64,000 nt of DNA from an uncultured Bacteroides sp. (lineage in GTDB: Bacteria; Bacteroidota; Bacteroidia; Bacteroidales; Bacteroidaceae). The stretch spans positions 62,001 through 126,000 of the forward strand of contig CANSEY010000003.1 in the NCBI GenBank assembly GCA_947646015.1, read 5' to 3'. Shown here in pieces: positions 3,003 to 31,391 of the stretch (position 1 is the first letter of the stretch; each line of letters begins with the position of its first letter). The translations under genes and the position numbers were made by a program. The notes beneath the pieces were generated by a model. That model was not told the DNA's origin. It ran no database searches and worked only from the letters and a program-made list of their open reading frames with translations.

Positions 3003-3851
3003 ATGAAACTTATTGCGGAAAGTGGTTCTACAAGAACGGAATGGGCATTGGTTGAAGACAATCATCTCGTACAACGTGTGTTTACCGAAGGGCTAAACCC
3101 TTTCTTCCAGACTAGAAGAGAAATTAGCAGAAGCGTCAGGTTGGGACTACCGGAATCATTCTTCAAAAAAAAACTGGATCAAGTATATTACTATGGTGCC
3201 GGATGCAGTTCATATGAAAAGAAAAATATCTTAGGTGCCTCTTTAGTGGCACAATTCAAAACTCCCATTCAGGTTGAAAGCGATTTGCTGGCAGCAGCTC
3301 GTGGTTTATTTAAATGTGAAGCCGGAATTGCCTGTATCTTGGGTACCGGATCAAATTCCTGTTTTTACGATGGTAAAATTATAGTCAAAAATGTGAAAGC
3401 TGCCGGATATATTTTAGGAGATGAAGGCAGTGGAGCCGTTCTTGGAAAACTTTTTTTAGCCGACCTTCTTAAAGGACTAGCTCCCAAAGAATTGGCAAAT
3501 GAATTTCATGAGAAGTTTCGTATCTCGGTCAATGATGTCATGGAATCTGTATATAATCTCCCTTTCCCTAATCGTTTTTTAGGAACCATTGCGTATTTCT
3601 TAGGAGATTATATGGATAATGAATATGTATATAACCTATTAACTAACAATCTCCGTAGTTTCTTTAACCGCAACGTATGCCAATACGATTATATAAACTA
3701 TCCCATCCGCTTTGTAGGCTCACTAGCTTATGCGTATCCAGATATTTTACAAGAAGTAGCACAGGAATTCGGAGTAGAGATAGATGTTATAGAAGAAACA
3801 CCTATGAATGGTTTAATCGAGTTTCACTCCATGAACATCGAAGAGTCCTAA
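3003..3851 (+). CDS. BadF/BadG-family amino-sugar kinase, paralogue of MurK
   Basis: This 282-residue cytoplasmic protein belongs to the ASKHA sugar-kinase fold that includes N-acetylglucosamine kinase and MurNAc kinase. It aligns along its whole length with the MurK gene at 27770. Both share the start LIA(E/D)SGST, the NPFFQ stretch, the ACILGTGSNSC phosphate loop (about residue 115), LGDEGSGAVLGK (about 143) and a C-terminal PMXGLI. The phosphate-1 motif differs: MurK has ADSGSTKTDW, this protein has AESGSTRTEW, so the usually invariant Asp is Glu. I chose the ATG at 3003 because the family begins there and the candidate promoter would miss the upstream ATG. It may phosphorylate GlcNAc while its paralogue takes MurNAc, or be a sensor with altered catalysis; the sequence does not decide. 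Confidence 0.85.
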   Translation: MKLIAESGSTRTEWALVEDNHLVQRVFTEGLNPFFQTRREISRSVRLGLPESFFKKKLDQVYYYGAGCSSYEKKNILGASLVAQFKTPIQVESDLLAAARGLFKCEAGIACILGTGSNSCFYDGKIIVKNVKAAGYILGDEGSGAVLGKLFLADLLKGLAPKELANEFHEKFRISVNDVMESVYNLPFPNRFLGTIAYFLGDYMDNEYVYNLLTNNLRSFFNRNVCQYDYINYPIRFVGSLAYAYPDILQEVAQEFGVEIDVIEETPMNGLIEFHSMNIEES

Positions 3852-4309
3852 AAGCGCGCACAATATCTAAAAAATGTTTCTAAACCTTAACAACCATCGT
3901 TTATAAATGTATTCACAGATCATTTTTATAAAACAGAGAAGCGTCATAATGTGAATATACAAATATAAATCTAAATTATATAAAATATTTGTTCTTGATA
4001 TTAAAATAAAATATATCTTTGCCATAGTAGAACTCCAAAGAGTTTCTAAACCTTTGTTAATAATAAACAATTTATCTCTTAAAAGAATCAACAAAGCCAA
4101 TTGATATTAATTAAACTGGCCAAAAACAAGTATTAACAGGACTTAAAAACAAATAGAGATAACATAAAAATTAAAACCTTTAAATGAAATGCCTATGATA
4201 AATAATTATCCAAACCAAGGATAGCTTAGCCTACCCTCCTATTTTACCTTTACCTGCATTTTCCTGAGAAATCAAATGAAAAACAAAACAATTAAATCAT
4301 CTATCTTTT
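3852..4309 (+). other. Long AT-rich intergenic region and untranslated leader of susC
   Basis: This 458-base gap has no credible gene. It holds the promoter at 3995-4022 and then about 280 bases of leader before the susC ATG. The leader is A-rich, then C/T-rich near 4228-4265. Only weak hairpins are visible, for example TATCC/GGATA near 4206-4222. Confidence 0.7.
3995..4022 (+). promoter_or_regulatory. susC promoter, copy 1 of a shared 28-base element
   Basis: The stretch ends in the -7 box TATCTTTG (4014-4021). The same 28 bases, with two mismatches, occur at 9533-9560 in front of the namZ operon. Similarity continues upstream (AAAATATTT) after a gap of about 11 bases. Identity well beyond the -7 box suggests a binding site for a common regulator or a recent shared origin. 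Transcription would start near 4028. Confidence 0.75.
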
Positions 4310-7300
4310 ATGAATGAAGATCGCAAGAAACGAGGATTAGCGAACAGCAACCTCCTTATAGCCATGGCTATTACTACCTTAATTATAGGTAGCAGCAATG
4401 CAATGGCTAATCAAACTGCTTCCGGCAGTAGTTACAAGGTGACTGAACAAATGCAAATACAAACCGTGACGGGTGTAGTAGTAGATGCAAACGGTGAACC
4501 GATTATTGGTGCCAGTGTCGTAGAGAAAGGGACAACCAATGGGATTGTAACCGACATGGATGGCAAATTTTCACTAAATGTAAAAGTAGGTACCACTCTG
4601 CAAATCACATTTGTAGGATACCAACCACAAGATGTGAAAGCAACTAAAAGCATGAAAGTTGTCCTGAAAGAGGACAACGAATTACTAGATGAAGTGGTAG
4701 TGGTAGGTTATGGAACCCAGAAAAAGGCAAACCTTACCGGAGCAGTATCCACTGTAGATGTCAGCAAGACTTTGGAAGCCCGTCCACAATCCGATGTGTC
4801 CAAAGCTCTGCAAGGTGTAGTACCGGGATTGACCATCACTAATACCAGTGGAAAACTAAACAGCAAACCAACCATGACTATCCGTGGTACCGGAACACTG
4901 AGTAACAGTGCAACCAGTAACCCGCTTATTGTTGTAGATGGTGTGCCAATGGACGATATCTCATATTTAAATACACAGGATATCGATAATATATCTGTTT
5001 TGAAAGATGCAGCCTCCACTTCTATCTATGGTACAAGAGCAGCATTTGGTGTTATATTAGTAACAACAAAATCTGCAAAGAAAACAGATAAAGTCACAAT
5101 CAATTATACCAATAATTTCTCCTGGGATACACCAACCATACTTCCGAACTATCCGGATGTAGCTACACAGGCCAGAGCTTTGCGTGCGGCCAACACTCGT
5201 GCCAATCTCGAGAATGAATTGTTCGGTATGTACATGGATGACAATTTCATAGCAAAAGCTGAAGCTTGGAAACAAAGACACGGAGGTAAAAAAGCCGGAT
5301 ATCGCGAAATGATTCCGGGTGATGATTTTGATTTGGGAGAAGATGGTAGCGCACTATATTATGCAGATTGGGACGTGGTTGGAATTATGTTTCGAGACTG
5401 GAAACCCGCACAAAGTCACAATATATCAATACAGGGAACCAGTGGGAAAACATCCTATTTTTTGTCCGTTGGCTATAATCACGAGGAAGGAGTGATGACA
5501 TTCAACCCGGATAAGTTGAATAAATACAACGCTAATATGAATGTCACTTCCGACATAACAAATTGGTTACAAATCGGTGGCCGCTTCAGTTATAGTGACA
5601 AGGCATACACCACCCCTAATACCCGCCGTAATACTTATACGTATATGTGGCGCTGGGGAAGTTTCTTCGGTCCTTATGGTACTTATCAGGGAATCGATAT
5701 GAAAAATGATATCGCATACCTTAAACAAGCAGGAGATGACAAGACTAATGACTCTTATACTCGTATAGGTGCCTTCTTAAAAGCAACTATTATCAAAGGG
5801 CTAACCTTGAATGCCGATTATACATTTAATATCAACAATAAAACGACCAAATCAGTAGGATTACCCGTAATATGTTGGAACTCTTGGGGAGGTAAACTAA
5901 ATACTCCTACTACCGCAGCAGGAGCTAATGGAGATACATGGGTATATCAGAATTCAGTCCGCGACAATTCTTACGCATTAAATGTATTCGCTAATTACGA
6001 ACTAACAGTTGCAAAAGACCACCATTTCAACTTTATGATCGGTGCCAATGCTGAAGAAGGTGAATATCAGAATCATTGGTCACAACGTAAAGGGCTATTG
6101 GATGATAAACTACCTGAATTCAACCTGGCAACAGGAGATCAAACTGTAGGTGGAACGCATAACGAATGGGGTACTGCCGGATGGTTCGGACGCATCAACT
6201 ATGATTATAACGGTATCTGGTTGTTGGAATTGAACGGACGATACGACGGTTCATCCAAATTCCCATCAAGTGATCGCTGGGCATTCTTCCCTTCCGGCTC
6301 TGTAGGCTATCGTATCAGTGAGGAAAAATTCTTCGAGCCCATCAAAAAAGTAGTCAGCAACACCAAAATACGTGCCTCATATGGTGAAATCGGTAACCAG
6401 GCAGTAGGTAGCAACATGTACATTTCAACTGTCTCAAAACGAACAGACGGCAATACACACTGGTTGAACGGCAGTAACAAAGTGGTAGCTTACGATCTTC
6501 CTTCTTTGGTCTCTCCGACCTTAAAATGGGAACGTATTCAAACACTGGATATCGGTGGTGATTTTGGTTTCTTCAATAACGAATTGAACATATCTTTTGA
6601 CTGGTACCAACGCACAACCAAAGATATGTTAGCACCGGGTCAGACGATGCCGGACGTGCTAGGTGCAGGTGCACCGAAAATCAATGCAGGTACCTTACGC
6701 ACACGTGGTTGGGAATTAAGTATTGATTGGCGTCATCATTTCAATGAAATAAACGTATATGCCAATGCCAGTATAGGTGATTTCAAGACTGTCATCACCA
6801 AATGGGATAACGACAGCCAACTCTTGAATGAAAACTATAGCGGTAAAGTATATGGAGATATATGGGGATTTGAGACCGATCGATATTTTACAAAAGACGA
6901 TTTTAACGCTGACGGTTCTTATAAAGAAGGGATTGCTTCTCAGAAAAAATTAGAACAAGACGGATTTGTTTACGGTCCGGGGGATATTAAATTTAAAGAT
7001 CTGAATAACGACAAAGAAATTAATGGAGGTGAAGGTACGGTAAAAGATCACGGAGACTTAAAGGTGATTGGTAATACCACTCCCCGTTACCAGTACGGCT
7101 TTCGTCTGGGTGGCGAATGGAAAGGAATAGATATTGATATGTTCTTTCAAGGTGTAGGCAAATGTGATGCATGGACACAATCAGCTTTCGTAATGCCAAT
7201 GATGCGTGGTGCCGATGCGATTTATGCAAATCAAGCTAATTATTGGACAGATGAAAATCCGGACCCTAATGCTGATTTCCCACGCATGTGGCCGGGTAAT

Positions 7301-7645
7301 GCAGGAAAAGGTACAGTCAGCGTACTTGATTTAGGTAATCATAACTTCTATCCGCAAAGTAAATACCTGGTAAACATGGCCTATCTACGTTTCAAAAATT
7401 TGACTATAGGATATACCTTACCAAAAGATTGGACACGTAAAGTTTACATGGATAAAGTACGCGTTTATTTCAGTGCTAATAATATTTGCGAACTTATAAA
7501 TAAGAGTAATGCTCCTGTAGACCCGGAAGTAAATACTTCTGAAGCTATAGCCAATGGTGGAAGCAGTGATTACGGCAATGGAACTTGGGGACGAGTAGAC
7601 CCGATGTATCGTACCGTATCGTTCGGTTTACAAGTTACTTTCTAA
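4310..7645 (+). CDS. SusC/RagA-type TonB-dependent outer-membrane transporter (muropeptide locus)
   Basis: This 1111-residue outer-membrane receptor should import a large ligand with its SusD partner, powered by TonB. It has an N-terminal signal segment (about 1-33), a carboxypeptidase-regulatory-like domain (about 52-126, VTGVVVDANGEPIIGASVVE), the TonB-box/plug start DEVVVVGYGTQKKANLTGAV (about 127), a plug with VDGVPMDDIS and KDAASTSIYGTRAAFGVILV, and a long beta-barrel ending in an aromatic residue (FGLQVTF). The susD gene follows at 30 bases. The neighbours make peptidoglycan fragments or MurNAc-containing glycans the likely cargo; this is inference from context. No anti-sigma or hybrid two-component regulator lies beside it. 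Confidence 0.95.
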   Translation: MNEDRKKRGLANSNLLIAMAITTLIIGSSNAMANQTASGSSYKVTEQMQIQTVTGVVVDANGEPIIGASVVEKGTTNGIVTDMDGKFSLNVKVGTTLQITFVGYQPQDVKATKSMKVVLKEDNELLDEVVVVGYGTQKKANLTGAVSTVDVSKTLEARPQSDVSKALQGVVPGLTITNTSGKLNSKPTMTIRGTGTLSNSATSNPLIVVDGVPMDDISYLNTQDIDNISVLKDAASTSIYGTRAAFGVILVTTKSAKKTDKVTINYTNNFSWDTPTILPNYPDVATQARALRAANTRANLENELFGMYMDDNFIAKAEAWKQRHGGKKAGYREMIPGDDFDLGEDGSALYYADWDVVGIMFRDWKPAQSHNISIQGTSGKTSYFLSVGYNHEEGVMTFNPDKLNKYNANMNVTSDITNWLQIGGRFSYSDKAYTTPNTRRNTYTYMWRWGSFFGPYGTYQGIDMKNDIAYLKQAGDDKTNDSYTRIGAFLKATIIKGLTLNADYTFNINNKTTKSVGLPVICWNSWGGKLNTPTTAAGANGDTWVYQNSVRDNSYALNVFANYELTVAKDHHFNFMIGANAEEGEYQNHWSQRKGLLDDKLPEFNLATGDQTVGGTHNEWGTAGWFGRINYDYNGIWLLELNGRYDGSSKFPSSDRWAFFPSGSVGYRISEEKFFEPIKKVVSNTKIRASYGEIGNQAVGSNMYISTVSKRTDGNTHWLNGSNKVVAYDLPSLVSPTLKWERIQTLDIGGDFGFFNNELNISFDWYQRTTKDMLAPGQTMPDVLGAGAPKINAGTLRTRGWELSIDWRHHFNEINVYANASIGDFKTVITKWDNDSQLLNENYSGKVYGDIWGFETDRYFTKDDFNADGSYKEGIASQKKLEQDGFVYGPGDIKFKDLNNDKEINGGEGTVKDHGDLKVIGNTTPRYQYGFRLGGEWKGIDIDMFFQGVGKCDAWTQSAFVMPMMRGADAIYANQANYWTDENPDPNADFPRMWPGNAGKGTVSVLDLGNHNFYPQSKYLVNMAYLRFKNLTIGYTLPKDWTRKVYMDKVRVYFSANNICELINKSNAPVDPEVNTSEAIANGGSSDYGNGTWGRVDPMYRTVSFGLQVTF

Positions 7646-7674: not shown

Positions 7675-9372
7675 ATGAAAAAAATTAAATATATAGCATG
7701 TCTGCTGTCATTGGCTGTAGTATCCGGTTGTGACAGTATCTTAGACAAAGGTCCTCTGGACTCTTTTACCAATGATAACTTTTGGACCGGTGAAGGAAAT
7801 ATATCCGGATATGCAAATGCATTCTACGAACAATTCTTAGGATATGGTAACGGCAATGGTTACGGTGATTTCTATTTCAAGACATTATCTGACGATCAAG
7901 CCGGAATGAGCTTTGCCAAATGGACTTATCCGGACAATGCACCCTCAACAAGTGCTACCTGGAAAAATGGCTGGATTGAGGTTCGCCGCGCTAACATCAT
8001 GCTCGAGAATGTACCGACAGTTGCTTCATTGGACGAAGCAACCAAAAATCATTGGCTCGGAGTAGCCCGCTTAATGAGAGCTTGGCAATACTATCACTTA
8101 GTACGTATGTATGGTAATCTACCTTGGATAGACAAAGCACTTAACATCAATGATGAAGGAGAAATATATGGCAACCGCGAGGATCGGGATATGGTGATGG
8201 ACAAAGTGCTGGAAGATCTGGACTTTGCGGTAACCAATATCAAAGATATTTCCAGTAAAACGACTTGGAGCCGTTCATTAGCCAACGCAATGAAAGCTGA
8301 GGTATGCCTCTACGAAGGCACTTTTCGTAAATATCGCAAAAATGAAGATGGACAGCAAGCCCCCGATGCAACAGGTGCTGCCAGGTACCTCACAGCCTGC
8401 AAAGAAGCATGTCTGGCCGTTATGAGCAAAGGTTATAAATTAAACACCTCTTATCAGGGGAATTATAACTCGACAGATTTAAGCAGTAATCCGGAAATGA
8501 TTTTATACAAAGCATACAAAGAAGGATTACTCATGCACTCCACTATCGACTACACATGCTCATCCACTCAAATCAGCGGTATGAGTAAAAATGCGTTCGA
8601 ATCCTACCTGTTTAAAGATGGTAAGCCCATGGCATTGACTTCTTTGAATAAAAGTGACGAAGCACCTTTCCAATACGGACATTTATCTTTAAAAGCCATT
8701 CTCGCTGTCCGGGATAAACGACTGGCCCAAACAATTGATACAGTACTCCTGTATAATGGCAGAGGATTTACACGATTTAACACCGGCATGGAATCAACTT
8801 CTTCGACAGGTTATGGAGTGGCTAAATACGATAATGAAGCTATCCCGGAAGGTTTTAGAAGTCAATCAGGAAAGAATTATACTCATGCTCCTTTATTTTG
8901 GTTGTCAGTAATTTATTTAAATTATGCGGAAGCCTGCGCTGAATTAGGTAATATCACTCAAGATGACTTGGATAAATCTATCAACTTACTAAAAGACCGT
9001 GCTGGATTACCACATCTAAACCCTATCGTCGGTTTCAGTGATCCTGCAAATAACCATGGGGTTAGCGATTTAATCTGGGAGATTCGTCGTGAACGCCGTT
9101 GTGAACTGATGTTCGATAATGATAACCGATATTGGGATTTAATACGTTGGCATCAACTCGATAAATTGGATACAACCAAATACCCCGATATCATCTTAGG
9201 TGCTAACGTAGCCAATGACATGGATGGTTGTGAAGCCAATAAAGTTGGTAAATATATTGACGGAAGTAAAGATGGTAGTCGTATATACGATAAAAAACAT
9301 TATTTATATCCGATTCCAACCGGACAAATAGCTTTAAATCCACAATTAGCCCCCAATAATCCGGGTTGGTAA
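7675..9372 (+). CDS. SusD/RagB-family surface lipoprotein (muropeptide locus)
   Basis: This 565-residue lipoprotein is the lid and ligand-binding partner of the preceding SusC. The signal peptide MKKIKYIACLLSLAVVSGC ends in a lipobox with Cys 19. The ATG at 7675 was chosen because it starts this signal peptide; the in-frame ATG at 7585 lies inside susC. Typical SusD features are visible: the early NFW motif, helical TPR-like segments (MRAWQYYHLVRMYGNLPW) and the C-terminal IRRERRCELMFDNDNRYWDLIRW and YPIPTGQIALNPQL. A hairpin at 9398-9447 separates it from the next gene. Confidence 0.95.
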   Translation: MKKIKYIACLLSLAVVSGCDSILDKGPLDSFTNDNFWTGEGNISGYANAFYEQFLGYGNGNGYGDFYFKTLSDDQAGMSFAKWTYPDNAPSTSATWKNGWIEVRRANIMLENVPTVASLDEATKNHWLGVARLMRAWQYYHLVRMYGNLPWIDKALNINDEGEIYGNREDRDMVMDKVLEDLDFAVTNIKDISSKTTWSRSLANAMKAEVCLYEGTFRKYRKNEDGQQAPDATGAARYLTACKEACLAVMSKGYKLNTSYQGNYNSTDLSSNPEMILYKAYKEGLLMHSTIDYTCSSTQISGMSKNAFESYLFKDGKPMALTSLNKSDEAPFQYGHLSLKAILAVRDKRLAQTIDTVLLYNGRGFTRFNTGMESTSSTGYGVAKYDNEAIPEGFRSQSGKNYTHAPLFWLSVIYLNYAEACAELGNITQDDLDKSINLLKDRAGLPHLNPIVGFSDPANNHGVSDLIWEIRRERRCELMFDNDNRYWDLIRWHQLDKLDTTKYPDIILGANVANDMDGCEANKVGKYIDGSKDGSRIYDKKHYLYPIPTGQIALNPQLAPNNPGW

Positions 9373-9447: not shown

Positions 9448-9532
9448 ACACCTTTAGCTAAAAAGTTTTACTCTGTAACAACCAATCTGTAAATTATCAA
9501 TTATAATATAAAATATTTCTAAATAATTGTTT

Positions 9533-9560
9533 TTGATATTAAAATAAAAAGTATCTTTGC
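9533..9560 (+). promoter_or_regulatory. Promoter of the 14-gene namZ-to-amidase operon, copy 2 of the shared element
   Basis: The -7 box TATCTTTG lies at 9552-9559. The element matches 3995-4022 at 26 of 28 bases. Transcription would start near 9566, giving a leader of under 30 bases before the ATG at 9593. Confidence 0.78.
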
Positions 9561-9592: not shown

Positions 9593-10762
9593 ATGAAAAA
9601 GATCCTACTCATAGTCGTCTTATTATGTAGTACTCTCTTTGCTCAAGCACAAAAGAGCGATGTAATTATAGGTGCTGAGCAGACTAAAGCATATTTTCCA
9701 ATTCTAAAAAATAAACGAATTGCTATATTTTCCAATCACACCGGAATGGTGGGAAATAAGCACTTGTTGGATATATTATTGGAAAACAACTTTAATGTAG
9801 TTGCAATTTTTTCACCAGAACATGGTTTCCGTGGAAATGCTGATGCCGGCGAACATGTATCCAGTACAATCGATTCAAAAACAGGAGTACCCATTCTTTC
9901 TCTTTACAACGGAAAGTCGAAGAAACCGAGTGAAGCCTCCATGAAAAAGTTCGATATATTGATTGTAGACATACAAGATGTGGGGTTACGCTTCTACACT
10001 TATTATATATCTATGGTGCGTTTGATGGATGCCTGCGCAGAATATGACCGCAAAATACTGATTCTGGACCGACCAAATCCAAATGGCCATTATGTTGACG
10101 GACCAATATTGGATATGAAATATAAATCGGGAGTAGGCGGATTACCTATCCCCATTGTACACGGAATGACACTAGGCGAACTTGCCTTGATGGTCAATGG
10201 CGAACGATGGCTACCCTCTTCACGAATTTGCGACGTGACCGTCATTCCTTGTAAGAACTATACACACCAGACAATGTATCGCCTGCCCATTCCTCCTTCG
10301 CCTAACTTACCGAACATGAAAGCGATTTATCTATACCCTTCCATCTGTCTTTTCGAAGGGACTCCAGTAAGCTTGGGACGTGGCACCACTCTACCTTTTC
10401 AAGTATACGGCCATCCTAATATGACTGGATACAATTACAATTTCACTCCCCGTAGTATTCCAGGAGCAAAAAATCCGCCGCAACTTAACAAATTATGCCA
10501 CGGAGTAAACTTGAGTAATCTTAGTGACGAAGAAATTTGGAAAAAAGGGATAAACTTAGACTACTTAATTGACGCCTATCATAATCTGAATATGGGAGAT
10601 CGTTTTTTCAGACCTTTTTTTGAATTACTGGTCGGTACCGACTATGTACGTAAAATGATAGAAGGAGGTAAAAGTGCTGATGAAATAAAAGCAAGATGGA
10701 AAAGAGATGTCGAAAGGTTCAAGATACAACGAAAGCCTTATCTACTCTATCAAGACAACTGA
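9593..10762 (+). CDS. namZ: NamZ-type exo-beta-N-acetylmuramidase (DUF1343, GH171), paralogue 1
   Basis: This 389-residue exported protein belongs to the DUF1343 family. Members NamZ/YbbC of Bacillus subtilis and the Tannerella homologue release MurNAc from the non-reducing end of wall glycans. The signal peptide MKKILLIVVLLCSTLFAQAQ fixes the start at 9593. Family motifs are SNHTGM, FSPEHGFRGNADAGEHV (with the conserved Glu), DVGLRFYTYYISM, LDRPNPNG and SLGRGTTLPFQVYG. It is the first gene of a long operon and is followed 40 bases later by a symporter. A second NamZ lies at 22421. The two share motifs but are clearly diverged, so different substrates or compartments are possible. Confidence 0.88.
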   Translation: MKKILLIVVLLCSTLFAQAQKSDVIIGAEQTKAYFPILKNKRIAIFSNHTGMVGNKHLLDILLENNFNVVAIFSPEHGFRGNADAGEHVSSTIDSKTGVPILSLYNGKSKKPSEASMKKFDILIVDIQDVGLRFYTYYISMVRLMDACAEYDRKILILDRPNPNGHYVDGPILDMKYKSGVGGLPIPIVHGMTLGELALMVNGERWLPSSRICDVTVIPCKNYTHQTMYRLPIPPSPNLPNMKAIYLYPSICLFEGTPVSLGRGTTLPFQVYGHPNMTGYNYNFTPRSIPGAKNPPQLNKLCHGVNLSNLSDEEIWKKGINLDYLIDAYHNLNMGDRFFRPFFELLVGTDYVRKMIEGGKSADEIKARWKRDVERFKIQRKPYLLYQDN

Positions 10763-12254: not shown

Positions 12255-12261
12255 CATAATA

Positions 12262-15333: not shown

Positions 15334-15348
15334 AACAGAAGATTCTTA

Positions 15349-15370
15349 ACCTCCTTTTTATAAGGAGGTT
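15349..15370 (+). other. Perfect intercistronic hairpin
   Basis: AACCTCCTT and AAGGAGGTT form a tight hairpin between two genes of the operon, with no T tract after it. It may stabilise or process the mRNA, or partly attenuate transcription, rather than end it. Confidence 0.5.
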
Positions 15371-21065: not shown

Positions 21066-21080
21066 ACACACACCATTATC

Positions 21081-22379: not shown

Positions 22380-22420
22380 ACCCATTTCTATTTACCGGAT
22401 ATTTAAAACATACTGAGAAT

Positions 22421-23695
22421 ATGACATATAGAAGAAGTATATTAAAGTTATTACTCACTTTTTTCGTCTTTATGACCTCCACTCTCCTCTCACGAGGGGC
22501 CGAACCGAGATCAAAACCTCCGAGAATCTGTATAAAAACCGGAATTGAGGTCCTGAAAGAGCAAAACTTCAAATGCCTTGAAGGAAAGCGCGTAGGATTA
22601 ATTACCAATCCGACCGGCGTTGACAATCATTTAATATCCACCATTGACATTCTGCACGAAGCACCCAATGTCAACTTGGTAGCCCTTTATGGCCCCGAAC
22701 ATGGTGTACGGGGTGATGTACACGCCGGTGATAAAGTAGATAACGCCAACGATTCCAGTACCGGATTGCCTGTTTATTCACTTTACGGAAAGACACGCAA
22801 GCCGACTCCCGAAATGCTAAAAGACATCGATGTGCTGGTATACGACATACAAGATATCGGTTGCCGTTCATTCACCTATATCAGTACGATGGGAGTAGCG
22901 ATGGAAGCTGCCGCCGAAAATAACAAAGAATTTATCGTTCTCGATCGTCCCAATCCCATAGGCGGATTAAAAATTGAAGGAAATGTGGTAGAAGATGGAT
23001 ATATATCTTTTGTCAGCCAATTTAAAATTCCGTACCTTTACGGGCTTACTTGTGGCGAGTTGGCTCTGATGCTCAATGGCGAACAGATGTTGAGTAAACC
23101 ATGCAACTTGCACGTTGTGAAAATGAAAGGTTGGAAGCGCAAGATGGACTACGTTCAGACAGGGCTGCAATGGATTCCTTCGTCTCCCCATATCCCGCAT
23201 CCGCATTCCGCTTTCTTTTATCCGGTATCCGGGATACTCGGTGAACTAGGTTATATGTCAATTGGCGTAGGATACACCATTCCGTTCCAGATGTTTGCTG
23301 CCCCTTGGGTGGAAGCAGAGAAACTGGCAGATAACCTCAATCGCCTGCACCTGCCGGGAGTAATATTCCGGCCGATGCATCTCAAGCCTTTCTACTCAGT
23401 AGGTAAAGAAGAGCATCTGCAAGGAGTACAAGTGCATATTGTAGATTTTAACAAAGCCTCACTAAGCGAGATACAGTTTTACGTGATGCAGGAAGTAACC
23501 GCCCTCTATCCGGATCGTGCCGTATTCGACCATGCCGATAAAGAGCGCTTCCATATGTTCGATCTCGTCAGTGGCTCTAAAGAGATACGCGAGCGCTTCA
23601 GTCAACGCAACCGTTGGGAAGATGTCCGCGATTACTGGTACAAAGATGTCGACGACTTTCGACGGCTATCGCAAAAGTACTATTTATATAAATAA
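22421..23695 (+). CDS. namZ: NamZ-type exo-beta-N-acetylmuramidase (DUF1343, GH171), paralogue 2
   Basis: This 424-residue member of the DUF1343 family has an N-terminal hydrophobic signal segment (MTYRRSILKLLLTFFVFMTS). The family motifs are clear: GLITNPTGVD, LYGPEHGVRGDVHAG with the conserved Glu, YDIQDIGCRSFTYISTMG, LDRPNPIGG and SIGVGYTIPFQMFAAPW. It is about 35 residues longer than paralogue 1 at 9593 and differs in its C-terminal half. It should release MurNAc from glycan ends in the periplasm. Keeping two copies in one operon suggests a division of labour, for example by chain length or peptide substitution. Confidence 0.88.
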   Translation: MTYRRSILKLLLTFFVFMTSTLLSRGAEPRSKPPRICIKTGIEVLKEQNFKCLEGKRVGLITNPTGVDNHLISTIDILHEAPNVNLVALYGPEHGVRGDVHAGDKVDNANDSSTGLPVYSLYGKTRKPTPEMLKDIDVLVYDIQDIGCRSFTYISTMGVAMEAAAENNKEFIVLDRPNPIGGLKIEGNVVEDGYISFVSQFKIPYLYGLTCGELALMLNGEQMLSKPCNLHVVKMKGWKRKMDYVQTGLQWIPSSPHIPHPHSAFFYPVSGILGELGYMSIGVGYTIPFQMFAAPWVEAEKLADNLNRLHLPGVIFRPMHLKPFYSVGKEEHLQGVQVHIVDFNKASLSEIQFYVMQEVTALYPDRAVFDHADKERFHMFDLVSGSKEIRERFSQRNRWEDVRDYWYKDVDDFRRLSQKYYLYK

Positions 23696-23730
23696 AAAAC
23701 TGGGCTGAGTGCCGAACAAACAGAGAAACA

Positions 23731-26601
23731 ATGAAAATGGAAAGAAACTACAGTGCGTTCTTGCAAGATATCGGACGATTTATCCCGCGAGACAGATTAT
23801 TTACTGACGAACTCCATCGTTTGGCGTGGGGGACAGATGCCGGTTTCTATCGACTGATTCCTCAAATCGTAATTCATTCAATCAATGATGACGAAGTAAT
23901 AGAAATCATCTATCTAGCCGACCGGTACAATATACCGGTTACTTTCCGTGCAGCAGGAACCAGTCTTTCGGGTCAAGCCATTAGTGACTCTGTTCTGATT
24001 ATAGCCGGAAAAGGTTGGGAAAACTACGAACTTTCACCCGACCACGAAAAAATCTATCTGGAGCCCGGCATTGTCGGACAGCGAGTAAACGAGATTTTAG
24101 CACCTTACGGACGTAAATTTGCCCCGGACCCGGCTTCTATAAAAAGTGCCATGGTGGGTGGAATCGTGATGAACAATGCTTCGGGTATGAACTGCGGAAC
24201 ACATGCCAACAGTGATAAAATGTTGCTATCTGTACATATCATATTTCCTGACGGATATTATCTCAATACAGATAGTCAGGAGTCACGTGAGAATTTTAAA
24301 GAAGATTATCCCGAATTCCTCCAGCGCATCTGCGAACTCCGTGACCAGATACGCAGTAACGAGAAGCTTAGCGCACGCATCCGCTACAAATATTCAATCA
24401 AGAACGTAACAGGCCTGAATATTCTACCGTTCCTCGTATACGACGATCCTTTCGACATTATCGCTCACCTGATGGTAGGTTCAGAAGGTACACTGGCTTT
24501 CCTTGCCGGTGTAACCATGAAAACAGAGTATGACTATCCGTATAAAGCCAGTGCCATGCTCTACTTCAGCGATATCAAAGAGGCATGCCGTGCAGTGGTA
24601 GCTATGAAAAGACTCGTCAACGCAAATGGAGAATGGATTGTAAAAGGTGCGGAATTACTCGACTGGAAATCCTTGGCTTCAGTCAATGATCCGACAGGAG
24701 AAGGGTTGACCGCTGTCCTGACCGAGACCAAAGCATGTACACAGGAAGAACTCAATCAGAATATCGCCATCATCGAGGAGGCATTAAAAGCATTCGATAC
24801 ATATATTCCGGTCCATTTTACGGATCAACCCGAAGAATATTCAAAATACTGGGCAATTCGGGCAGGTATTTTTCCATCTGTAGGTGGAACACGCCCTTCG
24901 GGAACGACTTGCCTGATCGAGGACGTTGCTTTTCATATCGAGGATCTTCCTGAAGCAACCGCCGAACTGCAACAGCTCATCGCCCGCCACGGATACGATG
25001 ATGCCTGCATTTACGGTCATGCCTTGGAAGGCAATTACCATTTTATCATCAATCAGTCATTCAGCAGTGAGGCTGAGGTAAAACGGTACGAAGCCCTGAT
25101 GAATGATGTAATAGATTTGGTAGTAGGCAAATATGATGGTTCACTAAAAGCCGAACACGGCACAGGAAGAAATATGGCTCCATTTGTAGAATACGAATGG
25201 GGAGAAGAGGCCTACGCAATAATGAAAGAAGTAAAACAACTCTTCGACCCCAAAGGATTATTTAATCCGGGAGTTATCTTTAATGATGATCCTCAATGCC
25301 ATATCAAGCACTTCAAACCCCTCTCTCCATTGACAATAGGACAAGATACCCAAGTAACCCGACAGATAGACCGGTGCATCGAATGTGGGTTCTGTGAAGT
25401 AAACTGCCTGTCATGCGGATTTACACTCTCCTCACGACAGCGTATCGTTATTCAAAGAGAGATCTCACGCTTGAAGAAAAGCGGTGAGAATCCCCAATTA
25501 CTGGAAACGTTATCTGAGCTATACCGGTATTCTGGTAACCGGACTTGTGCCGGCGACGGTTTATGTGCTATGTCTTGTCCGATGGGCATCAATACCGGTG
25601 ACCTGACCCACATCCTGCGTCAGTCTGAGTTTCCTCCCGGAAGTACCGGTTACAGAGCCGGTAAGTTTGCTGCCAATCATTTTGCAGGAATCAAAAGTAC
25701 TTTGCGCCCAGTATTATCACTTGCCAATGCGGCACATAGCTTATTGGGTACATCAACAATGACCTCCATTACCCGGAAAATGCACAGTGCGTGGGGACTC
25801 CCACAATGGACACCGGCCATGCCCAAAAGCTATAAAATACGGAAAAGCGATCAGACTCCGGCAATGAATAACAAGGTAGTCTACTTTCCCAGTTGCATCA
25901 ATCAAACGATGGGGCTGGCAAAAGATTCTCCTGTAAATCAACCTTTGGTAAAACAAATGCTCTCCCTGCTTCAAAAAGCCGGATACGAGGTCATCTTCCC
26001 TCCTAAAATGGAAAAACTCTGTTGCGGAACCATTTGGGAAAGCAAAGGTATGCTGGATATCGCCGACAGTAAATCGACCGAACTGGAAGCCGCTTTATGG
26101 GAAGCCAGCGAACAGGGACGTTATCCGGTGCTTTGTGACCAAAGTCCTTGCTTACACCGCATGCGTGCCACTATCCAAAAGATAAAGTTATATGAACCGG
26201 CAGAATTCATTTATACTTTCTTGCGGGACAAACTGGAATTTACCCCAACCGACCGACCGATTGCCATACACATCACATGTTCCATGCGCAAAATGGGATT
26301 GGCGAATATACTAATCTCACTCGCAAAGCTTTGCTCAACCCAAGTATTCATTCCGGAAGAGGTCGGTTGTTGTGGTTTTGCCGGAGACAAAGGATTCACG
26401 CAGCCGGAACTCAACACTTATGCTTTACGCAAGCTGCGTCCGCAATTGACGAAAGCCGGTATCGGTATCGGTTACTCAAATAGTCGTACCTGTGAAATCG
26501 GTCTCGCCACCAATACCGGTATCCCCTATGTATCGATTGCATATCTGGTCGATCAGTGTACCCGGCCTATAAAACAAGAAAATAACTTAACACTTAAATA
26601 A
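23731..26601 (+). CDS. FAD-linked oxidase/Fe-S protein, probable D-lactate dehydrogenase
   Basis: This 956-residue protein fuses a flavin oxidase and an iron-sulphur electron-transfer half. FAD-binding type 4 lies at about 40-220 (FRAAGTSLSGQA, PDPASIKSAMVGGIVMNNASG), and the FAD-oxidase C domain runs to about 530 (GSLKAEHGTGRNMAPFV). Two ferredoxin-like clusters follow: CIECGFCEVNCLSCG (about 548) and CAGDGLCAMSCP (about 610). Two CCG domains end it (CCGTIWESKG, VGCCGFAGDKGF). This layout is shared by respiratory D-lactate and glycolate dehydrogenases (GlcD plus GlcF). D-lactate is the second product of MurQ, encoded three genes downstream, which makes D-lactate the best guess. It would pass electrons to the quinone pool at the inner membrane. 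Confidence 0.85.
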   Translation: MKMERNYSAFLQDIGRFIPRDRLFTDELHRLAWGTDAGFYRLIPQIVIHSINDDEVIEIIYLADRYNIPVTFRAAGTSLSGQAISDSVLIIAGKGWENYELSPDHEKIYLEPGIVGQRVNEILAPYGRKFAPDPASIKSAMVGGIVMNNASGMNCGTHANSDKMLLSVHIIFPDGYYLNTDSQESRENFKEDYPEFLQRICELRDQIRSNEKLSARIRYKYSIKNVTGLNILPFLVYDDPFDIIAHLMVGSEGTLAFLAGVTMKTEYDYPYKASAMLYFSDIKEACRAVVAMKRLVNANGEWIVKGAELLDWKSLASVNDPTGEGLTAVLTETKACTQEELNQNIAIIEEALKAFDTYIPVHFTDQPEEYSKYWAIRAGIFPSVGGTRPSGTTCLIEDVAFHIEDLPEATAELQQLIARHGYDDACIYGHALEGNYHFIINQSFSSEAEVKRYEALMNDVIDLVVGKYDGSLKAEHGTGRNMAPFVEYEWGEEAYAIMKEVKQLFDPKGLFNPGVIFNDDPQCHIKHFKPLSPLTIGQDTQVTRQIDRCIECGFCEVNCLSCGFTLSSRQRIVIQREISRLKKSGENPQLLETLSELYRYSGNRTCAGDGLCAMSCPMGINTGDLTHILRQSEFPPGSTGYRAGKFAANHFAGIKSTLRPVLSLANAAHSLLGTSTMTSITRKMHSAWGLPQWTPAMPKSYKIRKSDQTPAMNNKVVYFPSCINQTMGLAKDSPVNQPLVKQMLSLLQKAGYEVIFPPKMEKLCCGTIWESKGMLDIADSKSTELEAALWEASEQGRYPVLCDQSPCLHRMRATIQKIKLYEPAEFIYTFLRDKLEFTPTDRPIAIHITCSMRKMGLANILISLAKLCSTQVFIPEEVGCCGFAGDKGFTQPELNTYALRKLRPQLTKAGIGIGYSNSRTCEIGLATNTGIPYVSIAYLVDQCTRPIKQENNLTLK

Positions 26602-26609
26602 AAAACACA

Positions 26610-27773
26610 ATGAATCAAACAGTCAACAAACGCCTACTCGCTCTTGATGTATTGCGAGGCATCACTATCGCAGGTATGATTATGGTCAACAACCCCGGCA
26701 GCTGGAGTTATGTATATGCTCCCCTTGGGCATGCGGCATGGATCGGCTTAACCCCGACCGATCTGGTATTTCCTTTCTTTATGTTTATCATGGGTATCTC
26801 TACCTACATCTCATTAAGAAAGTATAACTTTGAGTTCAGCCACTCGGCCGCTTTGAAAATCCTTAAAAGAACCATCGTAATCTTTGCCATTGGTTTGGGA
26901 ATCGCATGGTTCTCCATGTTTTGCCGTACCTGGAATTCACTCTCCGGTGAAGATATTTCATTCTTCTCCCGTCTGTATGAGTCGGTCTGGACTTTCGGCC
27001 ACATCCGCATTCTGGGTGTCATGCAGCGATTGGCGCTTTGCTACGGTGCAACAGCCATCATCGCTTTAATTATGAAGCACAAATATATCCCCTATCTGAT
27101 TGCCATCCTGTTGATCGGCTATTTCATCATCCTGATCAACGGAAACGGATTCGAATACAACAGCAGTAACATCCTATCAATAGTAGACCGTACCGTATTG
27201 GGTGAAGCACATATGTACAAGGATAATGGCATTGATCCGGAAGGTCTGTTAAGTACCATCCCTTCTATCGCACACGTACTGATAGGTTTCTGTGTGGGTA
27301 AACTCCTGATGGAAGTAAAAGATATCCATGAAAAGATAGAGCATCTGTTCCTCATTGGCACTATTCTCACTTTCGCCGGATTCCTGCTTAGCTACGGTTG
27401 TCCCATCAGCAAGAAGATATGGTCACCTACTTTCGCTATCGTCACCTGTGGGTTGGCATCCAGTTTCCTGGCATTACTTGTATGGATCATCGATGTGAGA
27501 GGCTATACACGCTGGAGCCGTTTCTTCGAATCATTCGGTGTCAACCCCTTATTTATTTATGTGATGGGAGCCGTTCTCTCCATTCTCCTGGGCAGCATAC
27601 TGATACCTTATGACGGAGGTAGCATCAGCCTACACGGATTCGTGTACAACGCAATTCTTCAACCCGTGCTTGGAGACTATCCCGGTTCTCTGGCATTCGC
27701 AATCTTGTTCGTAGGGCTGAACTGGTGTATCGGATATATTCTGTATAAGAAAAAAATATATATAAAAATATGA
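26610..27773 (+). CDS. murT: COG4299/DUF5009 multi-pass membrane protein, MurT-like MurNAc transporter
   Basis: This 387-residue protein has about 10-11 hydrophobic helices and belongs to the group often named heparan-alpha-glucosaminide N-acetyltransferase-like (ALDVLRGITIAGMIMVNNPGSW at the N-terminus, WIGLTPTDLVFPFFMFIMG). Its stop overlaps the murK start by 4 bases, and murQ follows. A murT-murK-murQ arrangement is known from Tannerella forsythia, where MurT brings MurNAc across the inner membrane. That gene order is the main reason for the call. An acyltransferase acting on cell-surface sugars is the alternative. The match of this protein to the Tannerella MurT family is from memory and should be treated as likely, not proven. 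Confidence 0.72.
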   Translation: MNQTVNKRLLALDVLRGITIAGMIMVNNPGSWSYVYAPLGHAAWIGLTPTDLVFPFFMFIMGISTYISLRKYNFEFSHSAALKILKRTIVIFAIGLGIAWFSMFCRTWNSLSGEDISFFSRLYESVWTFGHIRILGVMQRLALCYGATAIIALIMKHKYIPYLIAILLIGYFIILINGNGFEYNSSNILSIVDRTVLGEAHMYKDNGIDPEGLLSTIPSIAHVLIGFCVGKLLMEVKDIHEKIEHLFLIGTILTFAGFLLSYGCPISKKIWSPTFAIVTCGLASSFLALLVWIIDVRGYTRWSRFFESFGVNPLFIYVMGAVLSILLGSILIPYDGGSISLHGFVYNAILQPVLGDYPGSLAFAILFVGLNWCIGYILYKKKIYIKI

Positions 27774-28606
27774 TATTAATAGCAGACAGTGGTTCTACCA
27801 AGACCGATTGGTGTGTGGTAGAACATGGACAGTTGATCCAACAGATTTTTACGAAAGGTACCAATCCTTTCTTTCAGTCTGAAGAAGAAATCAGTAATGA
27901 AATAGCAACTGCACTGATTCCTCAGTTAAAGACAAACAAGTTCGAGGCTGTTCATTTTTACGGAGCCGGTTGTGCTTTCCCCGACAAAATAGAGACAATG
28001 CGCAAAGCCATAGCCTCGCATCTGCAAGTTAGTGGAGAAATCGAGGTTAGTACGGATATGCTCGCTGCTGCCAGAAGTTTGTGCGGTCATCAACCGGGTA
28101 TTGCCTGTATCATGGGTACAGGATCGAATTCATGTTATTACGATGGTAAAAACATTGTCACCAATGTATCTCCTCTAGGATTTATACTGGGCGATGAAGG
28201 CAGTGGTGCGGTATTGGGCAAACTGCTGGTAGGCGACATCCTTAAAAACCAGATGACTCCGGGACTTAAAGAAAAATTTCTGGAACAGTTCAATCTGACC
28301 CCCGCCGAAATCATCGACCGGGTGTATCGTAAACCATTCCCTAACCGTTTCCTTGCAAGTTTCTCCCCATTTTTGGTTCAACACCTTGACGAACCGGTCA
28401 TACGTGAATTGGTCCTTAACAGCTTCAAGAAATTCCTGAAGCGCAACGTGATGCAGTACGATTACCAGCACGCCCCGGTTCATTTCATCGGTTCTGTAGC
28501 ATTCTATTACAGAGAGTTACTTTCCGAAGCATGTAAAATAATGGGAGTACACTTAGGAACCATTATCCAAAGTCCGATGGAAGGATTGATTAAGTTTCAC
28601 GAGTAA
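27770..28606 (+). CDS. murK: N-acetylmuramic acid kinase (BadF/BadG family)
   Basis: This 278-residue cytoplasmic ASKHA kinase should turn MurNAc into MurNAc-6-phosphate. Motifs are ADSGSTKTDWCVV (phosphate 1), STDMLAAARSL with a conserved Asp, ACIMGTGSNSCYYDG (phosphate 2) and LGDEGSGAVLGKLL. It starts inside the end of murT (ATGA overlap) and is followed 23 bases later by murQ, which consumes its product. The similar gene at 3003 lacks the first Asp. GlcNAc is a possible additional substrate in this family. Confidence 0.9.
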   Translation: MILIADSGSTKTDWCVVEHGQLIQQIFTKGTNPFFQSEEEISNEIATALIPQLKTNKFEAVHFYGAGCAFPDKIETMRKAIASHLQVSGEIEVSTDMLAAARSLCGHQPGIACIMGTGSNSCYYDGKNIVTNVSPLGFILGDEGSGAVLGKLLVGDILKNQMTPGLKEKFLEQFNLTPAEIIDRVYRKPFPNRFLASFSPFLVQHLDEPVIRELVLNSFKKFLKRNVMQYDYQHAPVHFIGSVAFYYRELLSEACKIMGVHLGTIIQSPMEGLIKFHE

Positions 28607-28629
28607 AAATATGAATAAAGAACAAAAAC

Positions 28630-29475
28630 ATGAATAGTAATATAGAAAAATCAGATAAACCCTCCTTCATCAAAATCTCTGAGCAGCCCTCACTTTACGA
28701 CGATCTTGAAAAGAAGTCGGTCCGCGAAATACTGGAAGACATCAATAAGGAAGACCAGAAAGTAGCTATTGCCGTACAGAAAGCAATTCCTCAAATAGAG
28801 AAACTAGTCACACAAATAGTTCCCCGAATGAAACAGGGGGGACGCATTTTCTATATGGGAGCCGGCACCAGCGGACGCCTCGGAGTACTCGACGCTTCAG
28901 AAATCCCACCTACCTTCGGTATGCCCCCCACATTAATTATTGGCCTGATAGCAGGCGGTGATACTGCTTTACGCAATCCGGTAGAAAACGCCGAAGATAA
29001 TACGATCCGGGGCTGGGAAGAACTGACAGAACATAACATCAATGACAAAGATACGGTTATCGGTATTGCAGCCTCAGGCACCACCCCTTACGTAATCGGA
29101 GCTATGCATGCAGCCCGCGAGCATGGTATCCTGACCGGCTGCATCACCAGTAACCCGAACTCTCCAATGGCAGCAGAGGCCGATATCCCCATCGAAATGA
29201 TCGTGGGTCCCGAATATGTAACGGGTAGTTCACGTATGAAATCGGGAACGGGACAAAAGATGATCCTGAATATGATCACAACCTCGGTAATGATTCAATT
29301 AGGACGCGTGAAAGGTAACAAAATGGTCAACATGCAACTCAGCAACCGGAAGCTCGTAGACCGTGGTACTCGTATGATTATTGAAGAACTCGGACTTGAA
29401 TATGATAAAGCAAAAGCCTTGTTGCTGATGCACGGTTCCGTGAAAAAAGCAATAGATGCTTATAAAGCCGGATAA
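28630..29475 (+). CDS. murQ: N-acetylmuramic acid 6-phosphate etherase
   Basis: This 281-residue cytoplasmic SIS-domain enzyme splits MurNAc-6-phosphate into GlcNAc-6-phosphate and D-lactate. The family signatures are present: YMGAGTSGRLGVLDASEIPP (about residue 75), IAASGTTPYV, and GPEYVTGSSRMKSGTGQKM, a hallmark of MurQ. Length and N-terminus agree with the family. It lies between murK and the beta-lactamase/SGNH gene. The D-lactate it makes can be taken by the flavin/Fe-S dehydrogenase upstream. Confidence 0.97.
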   Translation: MNSNIEKSDKPSFIKISEQPSLYDDLEKKSVREILEDINKEDQKVAIAVQKAIPQIEKLVTQIVPRMKQGGRIFYMGAGTSGRLGVLDASEIPPTFGMPPTLIIGLIAGGDTALRNPVENAEDNTIRGWEELTEHNINDKDTVIGIAASGTTPYVIGAMHAAREHGILTGCITSNPNSPMAAEADIPIEMIVGPEYVTGSSRMKSGTGQKMILNMITTSVMIQLGRVKGNKMVNMQLSNRKLVDRGTRMIIEELGLEYDKAKALLLMHGSVKKAIDAYKAG

Positions 29476-29507
29476 CCGAACCACTCTAACCCACAATACC
29501 ATTGAGC

Positions 29508-31391
29508 ATGGAAAACAAAATCAACTTTTCTCCTCCCTCAACAAGAGAGGGGAAAGGTGTGAGGTTTTTACTCACTACCTTTTCAATATTGCTTTGTAGT
29601 CTGCAAGCTGTGGCACAATCTCTGCCACGTGTAGCTCCCGAGCAAGTGGGCATGGACTCTCATCGCCTGTTACATGCCGATGAAGCTATTCACCGGGCAA
29701 TCGATCACAAAGAAATACCGGGAGCCGTACTCGCTGTCATCCGTCATGGCAAAATGGCTTATCTCAAGGCTTATGGCAACAAACGAATCTATCCCAATGT
29801 AGAGCCGATGGAAATAAACACTGTTTTCGACATGGCTTCCTGCAGTAAATCTATGTCAACAGCTGTTTCGGTTATGATTCTGGTTGAACGAGGACAACTT
29901 CGTTTGCTCGATCGTGTCAGCTTTTACCTCCCCGACTTCCAGGAATGGCGGGGAGAAAACGGGGAGAAGAAGGATATTCGTATCATAGACCTTATGACAC
30001 ATACTTCAGGTCTCCCTCCTTATGCACCGGTATCCGAACTGCAGGAAAAATATGGTTCTCCCAACCCCAAAGGACTGATGGAGTATATTTCCACTTGCAA
30101 ACGTGAATTTAAACCTCAGACGAAATTTCAGTATAGTTGCCTTAATTACATCACTTTGCAACATATCATCGAAACCATTACCGGGCAAAGCTTGCGAGAC
30201 TTTGCAAAAGAAAATATCTTCGATATACTGGGAATGCAATACACGGATTATCTGCCTACCATACAACAGCAGGACGGAAAGTGGATCAATACGGTGGCCT
30301 GTCCCTGGATGGACCGGATTGCACCTACCGAAAAACAAAAAGACGGAAGCGTACTCTGCGGGCAAGTACACGATCCATTGGCACGTATCCTGAACGGAGG
30401 GATCTCCGGCAATGCAGGTATCTTCTCTAATGCAAATGACATTGGCATCCTCGCAGCCGCTCTTCTCAACGGAGGCGAATACAATGGTCACCGCATCCTC
30501 AGCCCGCTGGGAGTAAAAACCATGTGTACAGTTCCCCGTGAGCTAACCGCATTTGGCCGTACTCCGGGGTGGGATATTTTCTCTCCCTATGCCTCAAACA
30601 AGGGTGATCTTTTCAGTCCGAATACCTTTGGCCATACAGGATATACAGGAACTTCCATCATCATCGATCCGGACAACGACACGGCCGTCATTCTGCTGGT
30701 CAACGCTGTTCATCCGGAAGACCGGCATAGCATAGTCCGTCTCCGTTCGTTGGTAGCCAATGCAGTAGCCGCCTCTATCTGTCCTCCCGCACAGGTATAT
30801 ACAGATCATTATTACAAACGCTTCCTGCAATTTGAAACAGAAACACCCATCAGCCCCAAAGATATTGTGATGGTGGGCAACAGTCTCACGGAAAATGGTG
30901 GGAATTGGAGCAAGCGCCTAAATAAAAAAAACATAAGAAATCGGGGGATCATCGGTGACGAAGCATTGGGAATCTGTCAACGTCTTTTTCAGATCTTACC
31001 GGGGACTCCCCAAAAACTTTTCCTAATGGCCGGAATCAACGATGTGTCACACGACCTGAGCACCGATAGTGTAGTCAGTTTGATAACCAAAGTCATTGAG
31101 AAAATCCAAACCGAATCACCACGCACCAAACTCTATATACAGAGTCTTCTGCCTATCAACGAATCGTTCGGACGATATAAAACGATGACCGGGAAAACTG
31201 ACCTGATACCCGAAATTAACCGCAAACTTGAAGCACTTGCCAAAGAAAAGAAAATACCTTTTATCCACCTCTTTCCATTATTTACGGAGAAAAACAGCAA
31301 CGTGATGCGAAAAGAACTGACTACGGACGGATTACACCTGACAGAAGAGGGGTATAGAATCTGGAGTAAAGCACTGAAACGGTATCTGTAG
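29508..31391 (+). CDS. Exported beta-lactamase-family hydrolase fused to an SGNH (GDSL-like) esterase
   Basis: This 627-residue exported protein begins with a signal segment (FLLTTFSILLCSLQAVAQ); the ATG at 29508 is preferred over the in-frame TTG at 29502. Residues about 45-410 are a beta-lactamase/penicillin-binding fold with MASCSKSMS (SxxK), FQYSCLNY (YxN) and HTGYTGTS near its end. Residues about 445-627 are an SGNH hydrolase: MVGNSLTENG, GIIGDEALG, MAGINDVSHD and DGLHLTEEGY supply Ser, Gly, Asn and Asp/His. Bacillus AmiE, a beta-lactamase-fold amidase coded beside namZ and nagZ, is a useful parallel. A plausible role is removing the peptide and an O-acyl group from MurNAc. It is the last gene of the operon. 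Confidence 0.82.
   Translation: MENKINFSPPSTREGKGVRFLLTTFSILLCSLQAVAQSLPRVAPEQVGMDSHRLLHADEAIHRAIDHKEIPGAVLAVIRHGKMAYLKAYGNKRIYPNVEPMEINTVFDMASCSKSMSTAVSVMILVERGQLRLLDRVSFYLPDFQEWRGENGEKKDIRIIDLMTHTSGLPPYAPVSELQEKYGSPNPKGLMEYISTCKREFKPQTKFQYSCLNYITLQHIIETITGQSLRDFAKENIFDILGMQYTDYLPTIQQQDGKWINTVACPWMDRIAPTEKQKDGSVLCGQVHDPLARILNGGISGNAGIFSNANDIGILAAALLNGGEYNGHRILSPLGVKTMCTVPRELTAFGRTPGWDIFSPYASNKGDLFSPNTFGHTGYTGTSIIIDPDNDTAVILLVNAVHPEDRHSIVRLRSLVANAVAASICPPAQVYTDHYYKRFLQFETETPISPKDIVMVGNSLTENGGNWSKRLNKKNIRNRGIIGDEALGICQRLFQILPGTPQKLFLMAGINDVSHDLSTDSVVSLITKVIEKIQTESPRTKLYIQSLLPINESFGRYKTMTGKTDLIPEINRKLEALAKEKKIPFIHLFPLFTEKNSNVMRKELTTDGLHLTEEGYRIWSKALKRYL

Follow-up and report, generated by a model that had tools for sequence, protein, structure and literature searches.

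A SusCD pair sharing a promoter-like element with a peptidoglycan-salvage operon in an uncultured Bacteroides

How peptidoglycan fragments cross the outer membrane during salvage in Bacteroidota is, to our knowledge, an open step. Muropeptides are also immune signals in the gut. The closest described system is the Tannerella forsythia cluster Tanf_08345–08385, which comprises genes for a xanthan lyase, two gtf products, lytB, ampG, ybbC and murTKQ and is co-transcribed. The AmpG of this cluster is a muropeptide transporter, and mutation of the cluster's regulator GppX reduced growth on muropeptides and N-acetylmuramic acid (MurNAc) (PMC5388701, in excerpt). A second kinase, K1058, is encoded upstream of this cluster (PMC10465942, in excerpt). 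Here we analyzed a stretch of 64,000 nucleotides of contig CANSEY010000003.1 from an uncultured Bacteroides sp. (the window), which carries at 3003–31391 a set of peptidoglycan-salvage genes, all on the plus strand by gene calls and family scans, together with a SusC outer-membrane transporter and SusD lipoprotein (SusCD). A 32-base element precedes both susC and the first salvage gene, namZ, and recurs almost exclusively at these positions in related genomes. Below, G### denotes a genome (G000 being the window's own), L### a locus stretch and C## a contig.

Judged by gene content and order, window positions 12262–29475 are the known T. forsythia peptidoglycan/MurNAc salvage operon plus extra genes, a correspondence of the ampG-mur part that the initial annotation had omitted. 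Common to both is the series lytB-ampG-namZ-murT-murK-murQ preceded by a xanthan-lyase-like protein, with a K1058-type kinase (kinA in the window) upstream of the cluster. The two gtf genes correspond to the window's GT2 gene and, by position, its DUF4922 gene. Unlike T. forsythia, the window has a phosphoesterase gene inserted, a flavin adenine dinucleotide (FAD)/Fe-S oxidase gene between the gene for NamZ paralog b and murT, and a PBP4B-like gene appended. Further additions are a second NamZ (paralog a), accompanied by an SSF symporter, and SusCD together with the shared element. The term 'SusC' has 0 occurrences in PMC5388701 and in PMC10465942. A search confined to Creative Commons-licensed literature, partly in excerpt, found no work joining SusCD to NamZ or murein uptake, which is weak evidence of absence. 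The core operon is thus already known; what would be new is its regulatory bond to SusCD and a candidate importer that is swappable and, in relatives, invertible.

The element TGTTYTTGATATTAAANNANNNNNTATCTTTG was absent from 100 shuffles of the sequence, and its end, TATCTTTG, is similar to TANNTTTG, the −7 box of Bacteroides. With ≤3 mismatches allowed, a 33-base form that differs slightly from it had two copies in the 4.9-Mb assembly of the window's genome (74.7% complete), both at this locus, against 1 for the reversed control; 56 SusC genes were scored in the same assembly, out of 126 first-look candidates. Searching 59 relatives for the element at ≤3 mismatches gave 34 matches in 20 genomes (control 0). 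Across 158 genomes of the genus, that of the window among them, the search at ≤2 mismatches gave 73 matches spread over 46 genomes; the reversed control was 0 in every genome. By distance, 41 of the 73 lay ≤200 nucleotides (nt) 5' of namZ and 23 others 1.2–8.5 kb 5' of it, while nine were on contigs without a scored namZ. A separate script that took the next gene on the same strand within 1.8 kb found namZ after 42 elements (one in a broken frame, in G124) and the SusC gene of the locus after 30. The last match, in G143, has 322 bases of contig after it and was therefore left without a call.

In L140 and L239, where namZ and the mur operon lie apart, an element-bearing kinA-SusCD set stands before the mur operon, and a weaker element copy with 3–4 mismatches precedes the first gene of that operon. 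The NamZ-symporter genes and the mur operon were on separate contigs in L140, L152/L058 and L239, again with an element-bearing kinA-SusCD before the mur operon. The near-exclusive element and the recurrent placement support a tie between SusCD and the salvage operon. Since one dedicated element stands on both units, susC and the namZ-to-PBP4B operon are probably two transcription units of one regulon. From namZ to the PBP4B-like gene all genes are co-directional with intergenic gaps of ≤95 nt, followed by a 15-pair hairpin, although promoter- and terminator-like scans were overall at shuffle level (17 hairpins versus a shuffled mean of 17.2). Many related genomes show this gene order as well, and the arrangement is therefore not due to chance.

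In the window locus, a simple pattern scan found a lipobox in SusD alone. Both NamZ paralogs and the amidase-like, phosphoesterase and PBP4B-like proteins had hydrophobic, signal-like N-termini without a lipobox in a crude scan, and look periplasmic. For NamZ to act, soluble fragments would then first have to pass the outer membrane, and SusCD would be their natural carrier. No surface enzyme able to open polymeric murein was seen in the locus by the crude lipobox scan, which makes the import and salvage of soluble fragments a better fit than wall foraging. The earlier joining of SusCD to murein catabolism gains from the shared element and recurrent placement; its wording as a 'complete' locus for 'dedicated cell-wall foraging' lacks support, as no surface murein-opening enzyme was seen. 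Like a Sus-type polysaccharide utilization locus, the window has adjacent SusC and SusD beside a catabolic operon for one glycan class. It differs in that the simple pattern scan showed no surface lipoprotein glycoside hydrolase, which some relatives do have beside alternative pairs, and in that most of its genes belong to amino-sugar salvage. Nor did family scans find a linked sensor or regulator among the plus-strand genes of 3003–31391.

We propose that SusCD imports GlcNAc-MurNAc (GlcNAc, N-acetylglucosamine) glycan or muropeptide fragments inward across the outer membrane, the fragments coming from other bacteria or host lysozyme. In the periplasm, both NamZ paralogs and the exported amidase-like and PBP4B-like proteins would trim them to MurNAc, GlcNAc and peptides. 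The products would pass inward through AmpG, the symporter and/or MurT and be phosphorylated there by MurK and perhaps the K1058-like kinase. MurQ would split MurNAc-6-phosphate into GlcNAc-6-phosphate and D-lactate, which the FAD/Fe-S protein may oxidize. We put at roughly 60% the probability that this locus imports and catabolizes soluble peptidoglycan fragments, with a SusCD that is co-regulated with salvage and phase-variable in relatives.

The SusCD behind the element varies far more than the salvage genes. NamZ matches at E 1e-30 were present in 95 of 100 sampled related genomes. Homologs of ~50% identity, which lie in another context and mostly without SusCD, were set aside. Outside the window's genome there were 44 window-type NamZ loci (≥53% identity), of which 40 were examined (L034–L073; G002, G008, G010 and G041 were left out). 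Where NamZ identity was 75–89% (L034–L058), SusC or SusD was encoded upstream on either strand in 16 of 24 judged loci and was not seen in the stretch examined in 8 of 24; L034 was excluded from this count as its contig ends too close upstream. BLAST against SusC/SusD references gave 0/15 upstream SusC or SusD for L059–L073 (NamZ 53–74%). SusC in this slot ranged from 24 to 100% identity to that of the window, with several SusD families: 82% in L049, 79–81% in L036 (broken pieces), 58% in L038, 44% in L045, 39% in L035 and 24% in L042. NamZ identity stays at 80–84% in the same loci. From these comparisons, the element persists while the SusCD behind it is repeatedly replaced. A third NamZ of the window's genome (G000:C4:1731-2861, L074; ~50% identical) lies in another recurring gene context without SusCD.

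Recombination cores of the form AGTYC-N5-GRACT were sought within 3 kb in 48 loci with kinA or the element. Two cores flanked one or both of these in 11 of the 48 (both in nine, kinA alone in L248 and the element alone in L255). The spacers were exact reverse complements within the locus in 11/11 cases, and 10 different spacers occurred among the 11. No flanking pair was found within 3 kb around kinA or the element in the other 37, the window among them. This pattern was used only locally because a genome-wide scan at 2 mismatches gave many matches and non-zero controls. The kinase gene faces namZ in L036, L232 and L246 and faces away from it in L035, L037, L230, L234, L235, L241 and L248. Between G194 and G057, a reverse match of 11.2 kb at 97.4% lies beside a direct match of 12.2 kb at 98.2%, and the inversion junction was resolved to the base inside GTTCTCTTGGAACTTAGC. 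All three susC leaders of G057 contain GTTCTCTTGGAAC.

At the corresponding place in an alignment of five leaders, the window reads AGTATTAACAGGACT and its relatives have AGTYC-N5-GRACT. Inverted-repeat and core scans found no partner core for AGTATTAACAGGACT in the window; none of its inverted-repeat pairs lay around kinA, and the longest was 71% complementary with arms 8 kb apart. With a degenerate core and a single SusCD in the locus, the window's switch is apparently locked. In relatives, the susC-driving element, usually with the kinase gene, lies between inverted site-specific recombination cores. Inversion would select one of two or three unlike SusCD pairs for expression, with the catabolic operon retaining a promoter copy of its own. 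Invertible SusC/SusD regions were reportedly described in older work on B. fragilis. Excerpts of another study describe invertible regions near susC and susD as frequent in gut bacteria and among those with the strongest orientation differences between inflammatory bowel disease patients and controls (PMC10939037). Those regions of Bacteroides likewise involve DNA inversion beside susC/susD. They differ from the present case in that the relatives' segment usually carries the kinase gene and a promoter element shared with the murein operon, and in that the window has no intact core pair. Elsewhere in the window's genome (G000:C25:27186-27466), two inverted related cores with 2 mismatches each lie 260 bp apart, with a SusC match a few hundred bases away, and possibly mark another invertible SusCD promoter.

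In relatives, DUF4623 and GHL10 proteins are encoded after some type II SusCD pairs (228 and 218 bits for the two GHL10 proteins scored). For the GHL10 protein of G057, the match to Cwp19 reached E 1.3e-68. Lytic transglycosylase activity was shown with purified Cwp19, and the same paper gives its domain as GHL10 (PMC6016235, in excerpt). A scan of the stretches from 58 genomes, a set that includes loci chosen for carrying the element, gave GHL10-type proteins in 12 genomes and the Cwp19-like type in 7. A lipobox pattern was present in 6/7 Cwp19-like proteins, and all seven genomes also had it in their DUF4623 proteins. Cwp19 itself sits on the surface of a Gram-positive bacterium (PMC6016235), whereas the proteins seen here mostly bear a lipobox and are absent from the window's locus. 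The Cwp19-like pairs are linked to the locus by place and, in some, by a core in the leader. More weakly than the shared element, they point to a murein role for SusCD. Five other GHL10 matches (40–77 bits) lie elsewhere in the window's genome.

A broader proposal extends this picture to the genus, and we hold it tentatively, at a little under even odds. In Bacteroides, foreign murein fragments would enter via a dedicated SusCD system with a phase-variable surface pair. Site-specific recombination would flip a promoter cassette, which usually includes the kinase gene, between two or three unlike pairs. Some of these pairs come with a Cwp19-like lytic transglycosylase lipoprotein, and the periplasmic and cytoplasmic murein pathway would remain under an invariant copy of that promoter. 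If so, the surface parts would vary, perhaps under phage or immune pressure, while the food stays unchanged. A promoter that marks the SusCDs of the pathway yields, for B. fragilis-type genomes, a candidate importer that can be tested. The window is presumably of this type: residues 20–389 of NamZ paralog a are 100% identical to PDB 4jja, presumably a B. fragilis protein. A stretch of 15.6 kb shares 99.46% identity with G109. Unlike SusCD pairs serving one conserved catabolic operon would be a natural experiment that separates ligand choice from surface variation in SusCD evolution.

Several observations weigh against the importer interpretation. Slot SusCs of down to 24% identity may not share one ligand. 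NamZ and the operon are kept in L039, L048, L050 and L054 with no SusCD seen nearby, so SusCD is not needed for the core. This NamZ (E 1e-140) is found in 111 of the 158 genomes and the element (≤2 mismatches) in only 46; most NamZ genomes thus have no recognizable element. Three of the 34 three-mismatch matches (G022:C8:694416, G054:C17:38777 and G057:C1:803954) fall outside susC, namZ or operon promoters. L229–L259 were chosen for carrying the element, and tallies over them are therefore not independent of it. The G194/G057 inversion is a difference between two sibling species, not within one strain. The element, as sequenced, is not directly before the GHL10-bearing SusCD pair in any of the seven genomes, and the window's own SusCD has neither a surface murein hydrolase nor a GHL10 gene.

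An alternative that we consider unlikely, though the strongest rival, is that SusCD came along as a passenger. Recombination would have its hot spot between asd/kinA and namZ and collect SusCD pairs of any specificity there, and the element would be a surviving promoter beside the recombination site. The wide range of slot SusCs and SusD families, the cores in the leaders, the frequency of invertible regions near susC/susD in gut bacteria (PMC10939037) and the Cwp19-like pairs of seven genomes, which the element does not directly precede, all fit such a history. However, none of the 73 element matches at ≤2 mismatches in 158 genomes stood before another kind of gene, the one uncalled match being cut by a contig end. 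The element is also found before namZ, and its weaker copies stand before the operon itself in L140 and L239. Less probable still is own-wall or generic GlcNAc-rich recycling, in which fragments enter via porins and SusCD imports GlcNAc-containing oligosaccharides (for example pieces of mucin or chitin) that feed into the same kinases; NamZ, AmpG and mur genes do persist without nearby SusCD in some relatives, and K1058, whose ortholog adjoins susC, is slow on MurNAc, but Pfam at E 0.001 found no glycoside hydrolase besides NamZ among the plus-strand genes of 3003–31391 and the GHL10 protein beside alternative pairs matches a peptidoglycan enzyme.

The two kinases were told apart by scores against PDB chains. 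The product of 3003–3851 scored 449–451 bits to 8oqk/8ow7 versus 246–247 to MurK chains, and 8ow7 is K1058 (PMC10465942). Conversely, that of 27770–28606 scored 394–396 bits to T. forsythia MurK chains versus 279–280 to K1058, its top chain being the uncharacterized 1zxo at 427 bits, above the MurK chains. Residues of the lactyl-ether pocket of these kinases are named in excerpts of PMC10465942; the corresponding loop is SPL in 27770–28606, as in MurK, and KAA in 3003–3851. The same excerpts report slow turnover of MurNAc by K1058, whose authors doubt that MurNAc is its natural substrate. The FAD/Fe-S oxidase gene lies in the same operon as murQ. MurQ chemistry releases D-lactate, which fits this neighbor and plausibly makes D-lactate its substrate.

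The features of the locus are listed in Table 1. The initial annotation had described a one-strand locus with SusCD, two NamZ, an SSS-like permease, MurK, MurQ and a beta-lactamase/SGNH protein, and all were recovered in place. Genes for its AmpG- and MurT-like permeases are present, although these labels come from NCBIfam scores below cut-off. What it called a D-lactate-type dehydrogenase is a GlcD-like FAD and Fe-S protein that falls below every listed NCBIfam cut-off. It had passed over the K1058-like kinase and the phosphoesterase, GT2, DUF4922 and SpoIID/LytB genes. We know of no murein-salvage role for GT2 or DUF4922 proteins; their genes (17318–19713) lie inside the salvage operon, and do so recurrently in many relatives.

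Table 1. Features of the SusCD–salvage locus, in window coordinates.
Feature	Position	Strand	Basis
BadF-type sugar kinase kinA, ortholog of the MurNAc-binding T. forsythia kinase K1058	3003..3851	+	PDB-chain bit scores; KAA lactyl-ether loop
Shared promoter element, copy 1	3990..4021	+	288 nt 5' of susC
Degenerate recombination core AGTATTAACAGGACT, susC leader	4129..4143	+	Alignment of five leaders
SusC TonB-linked outer-membrane transporter	4310..7645	+	TIGR04056, 875 bits
SusD surface lipoprotein	7675..9372	+	PF07980, 117.7 bits; lipobox
Shared promoter element, copy 2	9528..9559	+	33 nt 5' of namZ
NamZ exo-beta-N-acetylmuramidase family, paralog a	9593..10762	+	Both Pfam NamZ domains (NamZ_N, NamZ_C) above cut-off
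SSF sodium:solute symporter	10803..12254	+	PF00474
Exported protein, golvesin-like domain and sub-threshold Amidase_3 similarity; positional match to T. forsythia 'xanthan lyase'	12262..15333	+	
Exported calcineurin-like phosphoesterase (metallophosphatase) with beta-propeller	15429..17294	+	Family scan
GT2 glycosyltransferase	17318..18784	+	Family scan
DUF4922 protein	18781..19713	+	Family scan
SpoIID/LytB protein (lytB)	19710..21065	+	Family scan
AmpG-type MFS muropeptide permease	21081..22379	+	TIGR00901, 178.7 bits, below cut-off of 350
NamZ paralog b, ybbC position of T. forsythia operon	22421..23695	+	NamZ_N and NamZ_C above cut-off
GlcD-like FAD/Fe-S oxidase	23731..26601	+	Below every listed NCBIfam cut-off
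MurT/NagX-type membrane protein	26610..27773	+	NF046061, 117 bits, below cut-off of 480
MurK MurNAc kinase	27770..28606	+	PDB-chain scores; SPL residues
MurQ MurNAc-6-phosphate etherase	28630..29475	+	TIGR00274, 313 bits, above cut-off of 302
PBP4B-like beta-lactamase fold with GDSL/SGNH hydrolase, exported	29508..31391	+	Family scans; signal-like N-terminus
Terminator-like hairpin, operon end	31374..31406	+	15 pairs

The 'exported amidase' of the initial annotation was not confirmed, as the Amidase_3 score of 12262–15333 was 20.3 bits against a curated Pfam cut-off of 27. Its sole PDB match at E 0.01 in a profile search was the golvesin-like part of a xanthan lyase. H162, H488 and E571 were invariant in 11 sequences and could form a metal site. 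A structure prediction gave a predicted local distance difference test score (pLDDT) of 40 and was not used for a fold search. Amidase function is unproven for this protein. The T. forsythia name 'xanthan lyase' seems doubtful in turn, and may stem only from the golvesin-like domain.

Outside the locus, minus-strand genes at 31403–37652 encode a CRP-type regulator, a porin, CcsB/ResB, cytochrome c552 and a NapC/NirT-type cytochrome, and resemble an nrf (nitrite-reductase) cluster convergent with the murein operon. Another carbohydrate locus lies on the plus strand at 55279–63827, with a SusC-like gene at 55279 followed by GH3 and putative glucoamylase genes. A RhuM-family protein is encoded on the minus strand at 52588–53358, in a stretch of higher AT content that follows a tRNA-Leu (50335).

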